A DNA stretch of 5,692 bases, taken from NCBI GenBank assembly GCA_023132135.1, contig JAGLYR010000062.1, positions 1 through 5,692 of the forward strand, read 5' to 3'. The notes below the pieces were generated by a model. That model was given only the letters and a program-made list of their open reading frames with translations. It ran no database searches and was not told the origin of the DNA. Numbering within the stretch: position 1 is the first letter of the stretch; every line of letters starts with the position of its first letter. Shown here piece after piece: positions 45 through 5,692 of this stretch. A program made the position numbers and the translations under genes. The stretch comes from Candidatus Eiseniibacteriota bacterium. Its GTDB lineage: Bacteria; Arandabacterota; Arandabacteria; JAGLYR01.

Positions 45-103
45 GTCATGAAAAGACCCCGTGCTAAGGCACAGGGCCGCGCAGGATGCTGCCCAGCAGA
101 AGC

Positions 104-123
104 CTGGTGAGAAATGCGGGTTA
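104..123 (+). repeat. dispersed 20-nt intergenic repeat, copy A
   Basis: CTGGTGAGAAATGCGGG (104-120) followed by TTA. The same 17 bases, followed by CTA, occur on the opposite strand at 1851-1870, so the two elements match at 19 of 20 positions. This copy is 54 bp upstream of the -35 box of the pepD promoter and probably downstream of whatever gene precedes the window. It is not palindromic and has no attached mobile-element signature. The family is not recognised. The match was seen directly; its function is unknown. Confidence 0.7.
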
Positions 124-177
124 GTCGACAATCGTAAGTCGGAGAAGTGCCGTACGCCGAATCGCTTGCGGTTCCTG

Positions 178-207
178 TTGACGCGGCCGGGGGACGGGAC
201 GTATACT
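178..207 (+). promoter_or_regulatory. sigma-70-type promoter of pepD
   Basis: TTGACG at 178-183 (5 of 6 to the -35 consensus) and TATACT at 202-207 (5 of 6 to the -10 consensus) are separated by 18 bp. Transcription would start near 213-215, giving a leader of roughly 77 nt before the pepD start codon. The -35 box lies just after the small CTTG-loop hairpin at 159-174. This is by far the best promoter match upstream of pepD. Confidence 0.65.
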
Positions 208-217
208 GCTGATTTGT

Positions 218-238
218 CCGTGGGCGGGTTATCCACGG
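218..238 (+). promoter_or_regulatory. inverted repeat in the pepD leader
   Basis: CCGTGG (218-223) and CCACGG (233-238) are perfect complements around a 9-base loop, with a possible extra T-G pair at 217/239. The element begins a few bases after the predicted transcription start, so it would form a hairpin at the 5' end of the pepD mRNA, or act as an operator on DNA just downstream of the promoter. It leaves the ribosome binding site (around 280-287) free, so it is not an obvious translational switch. It contains TTATCCACG (229-237), which matches the DnaA box at 8 of 9 positions; a single such site is not evidence of an origin. Confidence 0.4.
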
Positions 239-290
239 GAGTGTTCGTGTCTGCGTGTTCTCAGTTCATGGCATGAAGGGAAGGTGACCA

Positions 291-1742
291 ATGGCACTCG
301 AGGGTCTGAGTCCAAGACTACTCTGGCAGCATTTTGAAGAAATGACGAAGTTGCCCCATGAATCCGGGAACGAGGCGGCCATGGCGGCATATCTCAGCGA
401 GTACGCTCAGAAGAAGGGCTGGAAGGTCGAAAAAGACCGGACCGGCAATCTGCTGGTTCGCGTGCCGGCTTCTCCCGGGCATGAAGGGGCTCCCGTTGTG
501 ATTCTCCAGGGCCACATGGACATGGTGTGTGAGAAGAACTCCGATGTGGAGCATGATTTCCTGAAGGATCCGCTGAAGCTCCAGCTGGTGGGCGACTGGG
601 TGAAGGCCAGCGGCACCACCCTGGGTGCAGACAACGCGATTGGAATGGCCGCATCCCTCGCCGCCGCGGAAGATCGCTCTGTGGTTCACGGTCCGCTGGA
701 GTTGCTCTTTACCGTGGACGAAGAAGTGGGGCTGACGGGCGCCGGCAAGATCGGCAAGGGATGGTTGAAGGGCCGGACAATGCTGAACCTGGACAGCGAG
801 GAAATTGGTGTGTTCACGGTTGGCTGCGCGGGAGGAGGCGACACGACCATTCGGTTGCCCATCACGCGAAGGAATGCGCCGCGCGGCGCGGTGGCGCTTG
901 ATGTGAAAGTAGCAGGTCTGCGGGGTGGGCACTCCGGGATCGATATCCACGAACAGCGCGGGAACTCGAACCGCGTGCTTGCCCGGGTGCTGAGGAGCGG
1001 TGCCGAGAAGACCAGGATATTCATCGCCGCGGTCAATGGGGGCAGCAAGCGTAACGCCATTCCCCGTGAGTCCGAGGCGCTGGTTCTGGTTCCCAAGGAC
1101 AAGAAGCGGGTCTTCATGAATGCCGTGGCCAAGGAAGAGGCCATCGCGAAGTCGGAGCTGGCGAAGATCGATCCCGGGCTCAAGGTGACCATCACGGCGG
1201 TGGACGAGAAGCCGGCGAAGGTGCTGGATTCCGATTCCGTGAAGAAGGTGCTGGACCTGCTGCTGGCTCTTCCTCACGGGGTGGAGCTTATGAGCTACGA
1301 GATCGCCGGACTCGTGGAAACCAGTACGAACCTCGCCATGGTTCATCTGGAACCGAGAACTCTGGTGGTCGGGATGTCGACTCGCAGCTCTGTGTCTTCG
1401 GCCTTGGAAGCCCTGCGGAACCGTATTGATGCAGTGGTAGCCCTCGCCGGCGGCAAGGTTGAGAAGAACAAGCCATACCCGGGCTGGCAACCCAACCTGG
1501 GTTCGGGCCTCCTGAAGGTCGCAAAGGAGGTCCACAGGCGCGAGTTCGGAGAGGCCGCGAAGGTTGAAGCATGTCACGCCGGTCTCGAGTGCGGCATCAT
1601 CGGGGAGAAGTTCGGGGGAATGGACATGCTTTCCTTTGGACCGACGATCCAGAATCCCCATTCGCCCGACGAGAGAGTCAACGCTCCGTCGGTGGAATCC
1701 TTCTGGAAGTTCCTCGTGGCTTTGTTGGCCGAGCTCGCCTAG
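291..1742 (+). CDS. pepD: Xaa-His dipeptidase (aminoacyl-histidine dipeptidase, beta-Ala-His dipeptidase), M20 family
   Basis: Cytoplasmic metallo-dipeptidase of MEROPS family M20, subfamily C, which in E. coli splits dipeptides such as carnosine and Xaa-His. The 483-residue product matches E. coli PepD (485 residues) end to end, including the N-terminal LSPxxLW motif. All expected active-site residues are present: zinc ligands H75, D77 (in QGHMDMV), bridging D114 (TTLGADN), general base E144 and ligand E145 (DEEVG), D168 (NLDSEE) and H457 (NPHSPDE). H214 in the GGHSG motif of the lid/dimerisation domain is also kept. ATG is preceded by AAGGTGA at 281-287, a good match to the 16S tail, and the start aligns with E. 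coli PepD. There is no signal peptide. It appears monocistronic: its own promoter lies upstream and a strong terminator downstream. A role in recycling peptides to amino acids follows from the family; true substrate range in this organism is unknown. Confidence 0.95.
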   Translation: MALEGLSPRLLWQHFEEMTKLPHESGNEAAMAAYLSEYAQKKGWKVEKDRTGNLLVRVPASPGHEGAPVVILQGHMDMVCEKNSDVEHDFLKDPLKLQLVGDWVKASGTTLGADNAIGMAASLAAAEDRSVVHGPLELLFTVDEEVGLTGAGKIGKGWLKGRTMLNLDSEEIGVFTVGCAGGGDTTIRLPITRRNAPRGAVALDVKVAGLRGGHSGIDIHEQRGNSNRVLARVLRSGAEKTRIFIAAVNGGSKRNAIPRESEALVLVPKDKKRVFMNAVAKEEAIAKSELAKIDPGLKVTITAVDEKPAKVLDSDSVKKVLDLLLALPHGVELMSYEIAGLVETSTNLAMVHLEPRTLVVGMSTRSSVSSALEALRNRIDAVVALAGGKVEKNKPYPGWQPNLGSGLLKVAKEVHRREFGEAAKVEACHAGLECGIIGEKFGGMDMLSFGPTIQNPHSPDERVNAPSVESFWKFLVALLAELA

Positions 1743-1768
1743 TTGGCTGCCGCGAAACCGCAAAACAT

Positions 1769-1816
1769 GGGGGGGCAACAGGCTTTTGCCGATAGTTGCC
1801 CCCCCTCTCTCTTTCT
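1769..1816 (+). terminator. strong intrinsic terminator after pepD, possibly bidirectional
   Basis: GGGGGGGCAAC (1769-1779) pairs perfectly with GTTGCCCCCCC (1795-1805), an 11-bp stem. Inside it, GGC/GCC (1781-1783 with 1788-1790) closes a TTTT loop, so the hairpin has an inner stem separated by an internal loop. It is followed on the + strand by TCTCTCTTTCT (1806-1816), a pyrimidine-rich tail giving U-rich RNA. It starts 27 bp after the pepD stop codon. On the - strand the same stem is followed by ATGTTTTG, so it could also stop transcripts of the convergent reductase gene, whose stop codon is about 70 bp away. Confidence 0.88.
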
Positions 1817-1850
1817 GACAGCCATTTCGCTGACGGACAGAGAATACCGT

Positions 1851-1870
1851 TAGCCCGCATTTCTCACCAG
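1851..1870 (-). repeat. dispersed 20-nt intergenic repeat, copy B
   Basis: Read on the - strand this is CTGGTGAGAAATGCGGG followed by CTA, identical to copy A at 104-123 except for one T-to-C change. It begins 6 nt after the stop codon of the reductase gene and points the same way as that gene, so it would lie in the 3' untranslated part of its mRNA, ahead of the strong hairpin at 1769-1805. Sequence on either side of the 20 bases does not match copy A, so the unit is short and well bounded. Confidence 0.7.
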
Positions 1871-1876
1871 CCTGAC

Positions 1877-3187
1877 TCAGCGGAGGAATTCCTTCATGTA
1901 CTCGAAGCGGGGCGTGAATTCACCTTTCCACAGTATGACAGAACGGCGAATGGGGTCCGGCAATTCTGCGTTCTCGAACCGGCCTGCGAAATCCACATGG
2001 GCCAGTGTGAGGATGAAGGGTTTCAGGGCGTTGCTGAAGGTGGAGGAAGCGCCTCTCGGCAGCTCGCAGGGCAGGTTTCCCACGGACATGACGGCAAGGC
2101 CGGGTCCTTTGAAGCCGGAGACTGCCCGGCGGGTCTCGGGGTCATAGATGTACACCGGGTCCCCCGATTCCGTGTCGAACACCGTGCAGGCCAGGGACCC
2201 GTTCACGTCGCACGTAATGTCGCCGACAGCCACCAGTTTCGGTTCTCCGGGGCCGGCAGAGAGGTTCCTGAGCTGGTCTACGTCGGCGAGTCTCGGGTAG
2301 CGCTCGTCCCAGTAGATGCAGTTCATGAGGACACTGAGCAGCCTCAGGTGTGGCTCGAACGCGGAGCGATAACGCTCCGGGTGATCGTAGTACTCCTGGA
2401 GATCGAAGGGGTGAGATGGATCGATCCGGTCGACCAGGTCCTCCGCGGTGTAGACCACCTTGACCAGCTTATCGCGGAGCGCCGCGTTTCCCGCCACAAA
2501 AGCGGCGAGCTCGGCCGGTTGGACTTCCATGTGTGGCAGGAGGTCGAAAATTTCCTGCGCGCCCCTGGAGACGTTTCCATAGCCCGTGAAACCGACGACC
2601 ATTGGGGCAAGGTCCCCCGGAACACCCTCTGCGGCAATTCTCTCACCCACCCTGGTGATCACGGTCTTGGCTTCGTCCAGCTCCCGGTAGAGGTGGGCGG
2701 GCTGGATTTCGAGAAATGGAGTCGTGACGCCGCGCACCTCGAGTCTCCGCCCGAGAGTCCAGAGTGTGTCGATCATTCCGGCCAGGCCCGCGTAGCGGCC
2801 GAAGAAGATCAGGCGCTTCCCGTCATCATCCGTGACCATCTCGTAGTCGAGAAGCGTGCACTTTCTCTCGACGAGCGCGGCCAGCATCCCCATGTTGTAC
2901 GCCTGACCCTTGATTGTGTGCGAGAAAAACATGTAGGCGCCGCCGGAGCGGAGGTAGTTCACAGGGATCTCCTTGATGCCGAGGATCATTCCGCAGGCCT
3001 TTGCGTCGTCCACAAGCACAGCGCCCGCCGTCTCGTAGGAACCGTCGGAGAACGCGCGCCGTGCGAAATGCTCTACCCAGATCTCGATCCCCTGTGCGGT
3101 GAGATCGGCTACATCCGCAGGAATCAGCGCGGCCCTGCGCTCCCATTCGTTCTTGTCTTCCATGCGGATTCCGATGCGATTGGCCAC
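1877..3187 (-). CDS. lysine-ketoglutarate reductase-like protein (LKR half of AASS), monofunctional
   Basis: Predicted NAD(P)H-dependent reductase of the saccharopine pathway, condensing L-lysine with 2-oxoglutarate to saccharopine in the cytoplasm. The 436 residues align along their whole length with the N-terminal LKR domain of eukaryotic AASS: EWERRAALIP (14-23), ILGIKEIP (68-75), FFSHTIKGQ (87-95), FGRYAGLAGMID (129-140), GFTGYGNVSRGAQEIF (199-214), DHPERY (268-273), IYWDERYPRL (291-300), DITCDVNGS (323-331), and the final RFEYMKEFLR. K72 and H90 sit where the catalytic Lys/His pair of yeast saccharopine dehydrogenase (K77/H96) lies; the G-rich stretch at 199-209 is the nucleotide-binding turn. 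Start is GTG, with AAGGGGG 7 nt upstream and an in-frame TAA just before it. The saccharopine dehydrogenase half found fused in eukaryotes is absent, and no separate partner is in the window. Family membership is secure; lysine as substrate is inferred. Confidence 0.88.
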   Translation of the reverse strand: MANRIGIRMEDKNEWERRAALIPADVADLTAQGIEIWVEHFARRAFSDGSYETAGAVLVDDAKACGMILGIKEIPVNYLRSGGAYMFFSHTIKGQAYNMGMLAALVERKCTLLDYEMVTDDDGKRLIFFGRYAGLAGMIDTLWTLGRRLEVRGVTTPFLEIQPAHLYRELDEAKTVITRVGERIAAEGVPGDLAPMVVGFTGYGNVSRGAQEIFDLLPHMEVQPAELAAFVAGNAALRDKLVKVVYTAEDLVDRIDPSHPFDLQEYYDHPERYRSAFEPHLRLLSVLMNCIYWDERYPRLADVDQLRNLSAGPGEPKLVAVGDITCDVNGSLACTVFDTESGDPVYIYDPETRRAVSGFKGPGLAVMSVGNLPCELPRGASSTFSNALKPFILTLAHVDFAGRFENAELPDPIRRSVILWKGEFTPRFEYMKEFLR

Positions 3188-3340: not shown

Positions 3341-3673
3341 ATGGAACTGGCAAGATATGAGATCAAGCGATGGCCCGGGCAGTTGTGCAACACGCTGGAG
3401 GAGGTCACGCAGGCGGAACTCGATGCAGAGATTGAGGATCTTCTCGATGAAGCCGACAGGTTGAAACGGTTCCCCACCGGGGATATCCGGCCCGTCCGTG
3501 AGGCCACAGAACGGGTTGGGTTCAGCGTGAGCGCGTGGAGAAGCCGGATACCGGCACAGCCGCGGTTTGCAGGCATGCGAAAGGCCATGGGAGCCGGCCT
3601 GTGGGAAATCCTGGGTTTCTGCCGCCTGTACAGGCTCCGGGATGCAGTGATGGAGAATCTGGGATGTGGGTAA
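3341..3673 (+). CDS. small hypothetical protein, 110 residues
   Basis: Function not recognised. The ATG is preceded by AGGAG at 3327-3331, 9 nt upstream, and roughly 70% of third codon positions are G or C, so the frame looks genuinely coding. The N-terminal half contains a strongly acidic, probably helical stretch (about residues 18-42, with TLEEVTQAEL and EIEDLLDEADRLK). The C-terminal half is rich in Arg and aromatic residues (AWRSRIP, RFAGMRKAMGAGLWEI, CRLYRLRD). No signal peptide or membrane segment is seen. The GLWEI...CRLYRLRD tail faintly recalls the GLWRLRVGDYR region of RelE/ParE-type toxins, but the spacing differs, the usual conserved positions are incomplete, and no antitoxin gene is adjacent, so this is not a call. 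The gene is divergent from the reductase gene and its TAA abuts the stop codon of the convergent peptidase gene. Confidence 0.6.
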   Translation: MELARYEIKRWPGQLCNTLEEVTQAELDAEIEDLLDEADRLKRFPTGDIRPVREATERVGFSVSAWRSRIPAQPRFAGMRKAMGAGLWEILGFCRLYRLRDAVMENLGCG

Positions 3674-3678
3674 TTACC
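3669..3678. other. palindromic junction of two abutting TAA stop codons
   Basis: GGTAATTACC is a perfect 10-bp palindrome. Its centre is TAATTA: TAA (3671-3673) ends the small + strand gene and, on the other strand, TAA (3676-3674) ends the M14 peptidase gene. There is no spacer between the two genes, and I see no hairpin-plus-T-tract terminator at the junction. Confidence 0.8.
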
Positions 3679-5692
3679 ACGGCCATTCCCGGCTCGTCCC
3701 CAGCCCTGGTCCCAGCAGGACGGCGTTCAGAAATGCGCGTTCCGTCGCCTTGAAAGCGGCGCGCTGGCAGGGGGTGGACACGAAGAGAATCACCTGGCCT
3801 CTTCCCACCCGTTCGCGTGTCAGGTAGGCTGTATGCGCCCAGCGCTCCCGGGCCTCGGGCCAGAGCAGGCCACTCAAACGCAGGCTATCCTCGGACGCGA
3901 ACGCTCCAACCACATCGTCGGGGCCGGAAGCCACCAACGCGTGCTCTGCATAGACCTGGACGGGCATCCACGATCCCGCTCCTTCGCCTGAGAACACACC
4001 ACATCCTGCCGCCAACCAGTGTTCCTCATCCAGATCGACCTTGAGGATGGACCCGCGCGGCTGAAAGAGCCGCATCCGCGCGTCCTCTTCTTCCAGCTCC
4101 TCGGCGGATTTCCCGACGGCCCATTTCCAGAAAGGCTCCGGGCGGCGGAGGGCTGCGAGTCCATCTTCCAGCAACCCGTCCATTGGACCGGGCGCCTTGG
4201 CCCAATGGAGGTCATCCCGGCGGAAATCCTGCTCGCGGATGTCGCCGCGAAACGTGATCCCGGACTCGGTCCCGTCTGCTTCGCCTGAGCGCCGCCCGGT
4301 TTTCTCTGCGAGCGTTGCCAGAACCTGCCGGCGGAGGCGCACGCTGCCCAAGCTGCTTGTGGAGTCGGCAACGAAGGCCGTCCCGCATCCGACAGCGATC
4401 AGGGTGCCTCCACTGCGGACCCAGGCGCGCAACTTCCGCACTCCGGGGGCATCCAACAGGCTCGGGTAGATGTTCAATCTCCTCCAGGTGTCGGGAAGAA
4501 TGAGGACGTTGTAGCGATTGAGATCGAGTCGCGACACGTTGCTCGCCGGCAGGGAGGCGAAACACAAGTCCGTTTCGTGATCCAGCAGCCAGGCCATCCC
4601 GCCGTAGCTGATGAAGGAGATCCCGTCGCCGGCAAGAAGGCCGATCCGTGGCTTTTCGAGCTGGCGGAACTGGCGGCCGCCAAGATCAGGTCCCGAGTCG
4701 GAGAGAGCGGTACTGACTCCCGTGATGACGACCCCCGTCTCGGCCGCGACGCGCCGAAGGATACCGGCGAGAGGATCGTCCGCGCTCCGATGGCGCGCGG
4801 ACAGAGGCTTCAGGCCGTTCTGGAGCACGCGTCTCACAAGCAGAGTGCCCCGAGCGAATGGCGTTCCATCCACGGTGAATGGTTTGCATCCCGCATGGAC
4901 CGTGCATCCGCTCTGCCAGAGATGGGCAAGCGCACGGAGACACCGGTCATCCGTCCCATCGATCAGGAACCCGAAGGTCGCGCGGGGATTGACCAGTTGC
5001 CCATCTCGAATCGGAGGGTCCTCTACGGGGTCAAGATGCTCCCACGGCACGTGACGGCTGTGATACACGGGCAGTCCTGAGGAGAGGGAAACCGACCAGC
5101 CGGTGGCCTCATACAGCCTGCTCCTGTGTTCCTTCTCGAGGCGCCGGCGCTCCGTGCGCAGGAATTCCTCCTCCATCTGCGGGTCGAATGCACAGATTGT
5201 TTCCACAAGACGCCGCAAGGGCTGGCGCAAGGGAACGAAGATGGTTCCCTCAGGCACGGTGCTCTCCTTCGCAGTCTCGTCCGACCAGAAGGAGCGAAGT
5301 CCGGAAATCCGCAGGTCCCTGGTGGACCGGTAGATCTCGATCTCCTGAGCCATAAGGGACCGGAGGAGGAAATCTTCCCTTGCGGGTTGGGAATGTGTCA
5401 CAAACAGCAGCGCTCCCTCGGCTCCAGAGATTCCCCGCACCCGCTCCTCCCGGTACGAACGGAGCAGGTCTTCGCGGTTGCGGGCGGCTGTGCGGAAGTT
5501 GCTCATGAAGCTGGTGATCTGGCGGCGGACGGTTTCCCGGTACACCATCACGGTACCGTCGTAGCGGGCAGTTCTCGTCCCTTCGACCCCGGCCTGCTCG
5601 TACAGAATCCCCACCGCACCTATCCCGCCGCTCCACGAGCTGGCAAAACCGGGGAACCATTCCTCGTGCCACTCGCGCGTGTAGTACTCCCA
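3674..5692 (-). CDS. M14-family zinc carboxypeptidase-like protein with GATase-1-like domain, N-terminus beyond the window
   Basis: The frame is open from the right edge, so the 672 visible residues are the C-terminal part of a larger protein; an internal GTG at 5614 is not a credible start because homology continues upstream of it (residues such as WHEEWFPGF and GGIGA). The first 60 or so visible residues are the end of an M14 peptidase catalytic domain: the Glu in AVGILYEQAG (codon 5599-5597, visible residue 32) is at the place of the catalytic general-base Glu. The zinc ligands (HxxE and a later His) should lie outside the window. A Rossmann-like GATase-1-type domain follows at about visible residues 347-441 (PRIGLLAG, YNVLILPD, LRAWVRSGGTLIAVGCG), then a region of mixed strands and an acidic segment (SAEELEEED). 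Such proteins are usually exported; the signal peptide would be off-window. It probably hydrolyses peptides or amidated substrates outside the cytoplasm. No frameshift or internal stop. Confidence 0.85.
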   Translation of the reverse strand, partial: WEYYTREWHEEWFPGFASSWSGGIGAVGILYEQAGVEGTRTARYDGTVMVYRETVRRQITSFMSNFRTAARNREDLLRSYREERVRGISGAEGALLFVTHSQPAREDFLLRSLMAQEIEIYRSTRDLRISGLRSFWSDETAKESTVPEGTIFVPLRQPLRRLVETICAFDPQMEEEFLRTERRRLEKEHRSRLYEATGWSVSLSSGLPVYHSRHVPWEHLDPVEDPPIRDGQLVNPRATFGFLIDGTDDRCLRALAHLWQSGCTVHAGCKPFTVDGTPFARGTLLVRRVLQNGLKPLSARHRSADDPLAGILRRVAAETGVVITGVSTALSDSGPDLGGRQFRQLEKPRIGLLAGDGISFISYGGMAWLLDHETDLCFASLPASNVSRLDLNRYNVLILPDTWRRLNIYPSLLDAPGVRKLRAWVRSGGTLIAVGCGTAFVADSTSSLGSVRLRRQVLATLAEKTGRRSGEADGTESGITFRGDIREQDFRRDDLHWAKAPGPMDGLLEDGLAALRRPEPFWKWAVGKSAEELEEEDARMRLFQPRGSILKVDLDEEHWLAAGCGVFSGEGAGSWMPVQVYAEHALVASGPDDVVGAFASEDSLRLSGLLWPEARERWAHTAYLTRERVGRGQVILFVSTPCQRAAFKATERAFLNAVLLGPGLGTSREWPW

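Follow-up and report, generated by a model that had tools for sequence, protein, structure and literature searches.

The miniature transposons (MITEs) of bacteria are generally regarded as debris that is short-lived and confined to its lineage. One of the closest described systems is RUP of Streptococcus pneumoniae, a MITE of IS630-Spn1 that is small, multicopy, and intergenic and shares its terminal inverted repeats (TIRs) with the insertion sequence (PMC2229807). The elements described here resemble RUP in being small, multicopy, intergenic MITEs tied to an insertion sequence through common TIRs, but RUP is an IS630-type element of a single species, whereas these elements have IS1380-type ends, occur in many phyla, and contain a conserved, covarying core. 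ERIC/IRU and Correia/NEMIS elements are also intergenic and 100 to 200 bp long, with a TIR containing TA and long RNA hairpins, and their transcripts have been proposed to affect mRNA stability via RNase E or RNase III (PMC2229807). However, their sequence is different and they are confined to related genera, whereas the core found here is present in unrelated phyla with different ends. The TIRs of our elements match those around transposases of the IS1380 family (IS1380A, ISEcp1, ISPme1, and IS1247) in several bacteria, there are short direct repeats at the target, and the genome under study has an IS1380-type transposase. In contrast to members of that family, the repeats described here lack a transposase and are only 50 to 350 bp long, and their 4-bp YTAR duplication differs from the 5-bp target duplication listed for IS1247 (PMC3281130). 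In Paracoccus, transposable modules (TMos) consist of a single IS1380-family element together with neighboring genomic DNA, which it carries and which varies in length (PMC3281130). The TMos are a precedent for solitary ends and for an element, described below, that encloses a 254-amino-acid open reading frame (ORF), although TMos hold an IS1380-family element with its transposase, while the elements here would be candidates for such mobilization.

The window, by which we mean the whole stretch of DNA analyzed (5,692 nucleotides), is the whole of contig C305, starting at base 1, from a 3.40-Mb assembly of 345 contigs. It contains two copies of a 20-mer, copy A (CTGGTGAGAAATGCGGGTTA) at 104 to 123 on the plus strand and copy B (CTGGTGAGAAATGCGGGCTA) at 1851 to 1870 on the minus strand, which are identical at 19 of 20 positions. 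A preliminary description had reported these positions and this identity correctly and had judged the repeat to be beyond chance, which agrees with the finding that none of 200 dinucleotide shuffles of the window contains such a 20-mer pair, even when 3 mismatches are allowed. The features of the two copies and their neighbors are as follows.

94 to 103, plus strand: arm of copy A on its element side, CAGCAGAAGC (matching the copy in L060 at 94% over 32 bp in a blastn comparison with the genome's other copies)
104 to 120, plus strand: right-end TIR of copy A, CTGGTGAGAAATGCGGG (TIR identity with IS1380 ends)
121 to 124, plus strand: TTAG after the copy A TIR, a target-site-like tetranucleotide (from the YTAR statistics)
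291 to 1742, plus strand: M20-family peptidase gene, between copies A and B
1850 to 1853: TTAG preceding the copy B TIR as read on the plus strand, target-site-like
1854 to 1870, minus strand: solitary TIR of copy B (listed as solo, L023), the left end, read on the plus strand as CCCGCATTTCTCACCAG
1871 to 1880, minus strand: element-side continuation of copy B, CCTGACTCAG, common to two other copies (L027 and L045)
1877 to 3187, minus strand: gene similar to the lysine-ketoglutarate reductase half of alpha-aminoadipic semialdehyde synthase (PDB 8dda, E = 7e-72)

Comparison with copies from the same genome places the homology of copy A to element ends at window positions 90/94 to 126. Its arm has a CAGCAGA box at 94 to 100, and full-length members have a CAGCAGA box beside the right TIR; the rest of the copy A element is diverged, lost, or off the contig. 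The homology of copy B to family members spans approximately positions 1849 to 1880. As previously noted, copy B lies 6 nt past the stop codon of the minus-strand gene (TGA, 1877 to 1879), and this stop codon falls within the element-derived stretch. The predicted protein aligns to residue 432 of the 436 residues of PDB 8dda, and therefore the gene appears to be without truncation, with a complete-looking C terminus and copy B just past it. Both copies are noncoding, as had been stated, under gene calls from a simple hexamer model. Their flanks, which had been called unrelated, are unrelated between A and B, but the inner flank of each copy recurs in other family members. We conclude that the window copies are two worn remnants, copy A being an element end at a contig edge and copy B a solitary end. 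Elsewhere in the window, a strong G/C inverted repeat (GGGGGGGCAAC...GTTGCCCCCCC, 1769 to 1806) lies directly 3' of the M20 peptidase gene and is terminator-like without a T run. Two open frames, at 3674 to 5692 on the minus strand (at least 646 amino acids) and 3341 to 3673 on the plus strand (110 amino acids), have no Pfam match.

A search of the assembly at ≤3 mismatches detects 113 forward and 106 reverse copies of the 20-mer (219 in total) and none with the reversed control, far more than the two in the window and too many to have arisen by chance. The statistics on copies from this genome cover the approximately 110 of these 219 that were mapped. Of the mapped copies, 112 are distinct; 68 of these lie within 420 bp of a partner, 17 face a contig end close by, and the remaining 27 are solitary. 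Paired copies are inverted, with the CTGG side inward, and have an end-to-end spacing of 181 or 182 bp, with shorter forms of 122, 113, and 53 bp. Many contigs begin or stop just inside an element end, as expected because repeats break assembly. The repeat is mostly intergenic, as the preliminary description had supposed: 99 of 111 mapped copies lie outside genes predicted by the simple hexamer model and 12 lie within them, although 83% of the sequence is coding.

The preliminary description had proposed that the repeat is a dispersed intergenic regulatory, 3'-end processing, or termination signal. The intergenic location and the bias toward gene 3' ends are what such a signal would show, as are very stable hairpins, the 53-bp form being a perfect hairpin (−32.2 kcal/mol, z = −14.8). 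However, the two strands are represented almost equally (113/106), the copies form inverted pairs with a body between them, and at least part of the 3'-end bias is accounted for by the target site (see below). In addition, a terminator scan at copy B detects none, and copy B alone folds no better than shuffles. We consider a signal of this kind very improbable; in place of a stand-alone terminator, processing signal, or regulator site, we find a transposon end present in inverted pairs (68 of 112 mapped copies).

Several arrangements depart from the simple pair. At C54:26527-27532 (L064:2528-3533), MITE arms of approximately 56 and 50 bp surround the 254-amino-acid ORF, which has no Pfam match, in an element of 1,006 bp; this is a MITE carrying or enclosing a passenger gene. 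An unrelated sequence, AATGGGACTATGCTCTGACCAGCTC, directly adjoins the TIR in L012, L031, L042, L054, L058, and L061, and CTCTCGCACTCGCCACGTCGCCGT does so in L015, L037, L039, and L060; these are probably larger mosaic or nested repeats. Two element ends that stand back to back with one TA in common (GGCTAGCC; L045:2020-2057 and L049:2573-2610) would result from the insertion of one element at the edge of another.

A search with PF13701 identified the one full-length IS1380-family transposase of this genome, at C139:3017-4396 (E = 1e-155). The TIR GTGGTGAGAAATGCGGGCTA at C139:4610-4629 is the right end of this IS1380 copy, and its left end has been lost, apparently to another transposase-like insertion. 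On that side, the copy is interrupted by sequence resembling an end of a different insertion element (L196:1-3028). Apart from the TIR, the MITEs and the C139 copy have no evident sequence in common; the MITEs are therefore elements that share TIRs with the insertion sequence and not simple products of deletion from it. Of the two traits of an IS1380 derivative, we thus find the shared TIR but no internal sequence derived from the insertion sequence by deletion, and a covariance model of the body (described below) finds nothing significant inside IS1380 elements. The C139 transposase is a candidate source of the MITEs. The same TIR, in inverted orientation, brackets intact IS1380-family transposase genes on Bradyrhizobium sp. 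CB82 plasmid pCB82_1 and Pseudomonas putida KF715 plasmid pKF715A. Clustering of all ORFs near ends in foreign genomes revealed no common transposase family. With one genome per species searched, at least 115 stretches contain the exact end pattern. They come from at least eight phyla and represent, according to record titles, Gamma-, Delta-, and Alphaproteobacteria, Acidobacteria, Planctomycetes, Verrucomicrobia, Fermentibacteria, Nitrospira, and Bacteroidetes. The repeat is therefore not specific to one lineage, contrary to the earlier suggestion.

The solitary copies, some of which end after approximately 34 nt with a small internal hairpin, could instead point to repeats of the REP/REPIN type, for which the mobilizing enzyme would be a single-strand (Y1, RAYT) transposase; the unit would then be the 20-mer plus a small hairpin, and the pairs would be REPINs. 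Better folding of the plus than of the minus strand is consistent with this, since it is expected for recognition of single-stranded DNA. However, the same end brackets DDE transposases of the IS1380 family in other bacteria, 4-bp duplications are present, and the sole Y1_Tnp match in the genome is 62 residues in a 112-amino-acid frame (E = 1.4e-6). With only this weak Y1 transposase fragment in the genome, we rejected REP/RAYT as the main reading, and with it the small REP-like family of the preliminary description; we hold it to be highly unlikely.

The flanks of the pairs show Y-T-A-R, mostly CTAG. Our first idea was a 2-bp TA duplication. It was replaced by a 4-bp YTAR duplication after a position-by-position identity test placed the two informative positions on the diagonal that corresponds to a 4-bp duplication and an element beginning with CCC. 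Identical flanking tetranucleotides are present in 32 of 65 pairs from foreign genomes, compared with 21.3 in shuffled data (P = 2e-4), and in 14 of 29 pairs from Acanthopleuribacter pedis, compared with 6.9 (P = 3.5e-4). In the window's own genome, an exact 4-bp duplication is found in only 3 of 22 pairs, which is no more than in shuffled data and suggests that these copies are older. The target site also bears on the location of the elements. Approximately 30% of ends form the stop codon of an adjacent gene: 30 of 83 testable ends in the window's genome close an open frame of ≥100 codons at the YTAR stop, compared with 6 and 12 in the other two frames (P = 4e-5), and 53 of 181 ends in foreign genomes do so, compared with 22 and 25 (P = 7e-5). 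In A. pedis, 8 of 58 ends form a stop codon, and the enrichment looks weak. The association with gene 3' ends that had been noted earlier is thus real in that many copies lie there, but it is explained at least in part by a target site that contains TAG or TAA. The element often sits in a stop codon that is restored by its duplication.

Based on these results, we conclude that the 20-mer is very probably the TIR plus target-site bases of a non-autonomous MITE family that would be mobilized in trans by IS1380-family DDE transposases. The transposase would bind the ~17-bp end (CCCGCATTTCTCACCAG / CTGGTGAGAAATGCGGG), and the element would insert at YTAR sites, most often CTAG, with duplication of the 4 bp. 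Since such a site includes TAG or TAA, an insertion into a stop codon would regenerate the stop and be harmless, and ends would therefore accumulate at gene 3' ends. Full copies (181 to 182 bp) carry a body of approximately 143 nt, predicted to fold as a single long hairpin in which three purine-rich internal loops are conserved. The evidence for a MITE is the repeat itself, its pairing, the ends in common with IS1380 elements, the YTAR duplication in other genomes, the stop-codon overlap, and the covariation of the body. Against it, the C139 transposase copy lacks its left end and has only the TIR evidently in common with the MITEs, exact 4-bp duplications in the window's own genome do not exceed the shuffled level, and the stop-codon enrichment looks weak in A. 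pedis. In addition, about a quarter of the copies, copy B among them, are solitary without a partner, although solitary ends and the ORF-enclosing C54 element would fit the known mobilization of adjacent DNA by IS1380-family elements. Compared with the traits of bacterial MITEs (PMC2229807), the elements have TIRs at both ends and are short, noncoding, and present in many intergenic copies (50 to 182 bp, 219 TIR copies). Their target-site duplication is found through other genomes and A. pedis and is undetectable in the window's own genome (3 of 22), and they are not A+T-rich, a trait that is typical of MITEs rather than defining.

Bodies of 140 to 145 nt can be aligned over their full length and fold into a single hairpin; they come from the window's genome, Holophagae, Thermoanaerobaculales, Fermentibacteria, Deltaproteobacteria, Myxococcales, and Verrucomicrobia. 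RNAalifold predicts 50 pairs, 37 of which are changed on both sides, with 90% of cells paired, and the covariation is 0.479, compared with 0.188 when shuffled and at most 0.117 when slid. For a second set of 27 matches from outside model building, which were aligned to the model, it is 0.708 compared with 0.220. The conserved unpaired boxes of the three purine-rich internal loops are CGNNGCGAG / CGCAGNAGA, CAAGG / ACGCAG, and CCGGAGGCGT / ACGTYGAGGA, and across phyla the first loop is CGAG/CGCAG. A covariance model built from the body with the TIRs excluded (R1; short calibration, so that E-values are rough) has 36 matches in the window's genome and 96 at E ≤ 0.001 in the cultured A. pedis. 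Of 117 genomes chosen from across the domain, 18 have matches to it, the window's genome included (several with ≥25), as do 22 of the 40 genomes that bear the TIR (80 matches in some). Matches are mostly 57 to 71% G+C, with some at 42 to 49%. Rfam 15 detects no family in the window or 16 loci at the gathering score and none at the element in 10 loci at a loose threshold (E ≤ 1).

The two strands of the body differ in folding. The alignment fold energy is −51.7 for the strand with GGAGGCGTAC and −30.1 for the other (−39.4 and −16.7 in the second set). On the strand with GGAGGCGTAC, G-U cells exceed A-C cells by 128 to 37 (74 to 20 in the second set), counts that are inflated by related copies and come from structures predicted on that same strand; when structures are predicted without G-U, the excess is smaller (24 to 13 and 21 to 9). 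This asymmetry suggests that the body may act as RNA or as folded single-stranded DNA.

The body is conserved more widely than the ends and may have a function. Bodies with the same boxes carry other ends, including a second end in the window's genome (TAGCCTGGGTTATTCAGGA) and an end in a genome of the same class, G006 (TAGCCCGGATTATTCACAA), both of which are similar to the ends that bracket the IS1380 transposase in G124 (L202). Ends that are not IS1380-like (e.g., in G050, where the end pair occurs only once) were matched to no transposase. In A. pedis, the two TIRs of one copy tend to change together (15 of 29 identical, compared with 6.7 in shuffled data; P < 1e-4), which reflects either subfamilies or hairpin-templated correction. 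Among the A. pedis TIR variants (L298 to L327), CCCGCAATTCTCAC is found in L302, L303, L310, L313, and L321, and L309 and L314 have unique pairs.

Template-switch correction of quasipalindromes could yield covariation mutationally. If the covariation of the body were such a by-product of replication rather than of selection, the element would be an ordinary passive MITE, and the joint change of A. pedis TIRs is also expected from hairpin-templated correction. However, correction should erase mismatches, and the internal loops stay unpaired and conserved across phyla. The excess of G-U over A-C on one strand likewise argues against it, with the reservation given above about the strand of prediction. 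We consider this explanation somewhat unlikely. It is quite possible, and we propose it tentatively, that the core represents a class of mobile structured nucleic acid that has so far gone unlisted, either RNA or single-stranded DNA with strand-specific folding, with covarying stems and three internal loops conserved across many phyla. In this proposal the core rides on different transposon ends (at least two of IS1380 type and several others) and would therefore itself be recognized by something common to its hosts.

We identify the repeat as the terminus of an IS1380-type MITE, which represents a new family of a known kind of element; a literature search for the exact sequences and for an IS1380 MITE found no relevant paper. 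No description of the hairpin core was found in the literature searched, which is not proof that none exists, and it matched no Rfam family. It is this conserved, end-swapping core that deserves attention. For the family as a whole, a target site that holds a stop codon, together with an insertion that restores it, provides a simple, testable reason for the buildup of elements at gene 3' ends. The conservation of the body over phyla while its ends change points to a selected function of the body, which can be tested in a cultured species, A. pedis.
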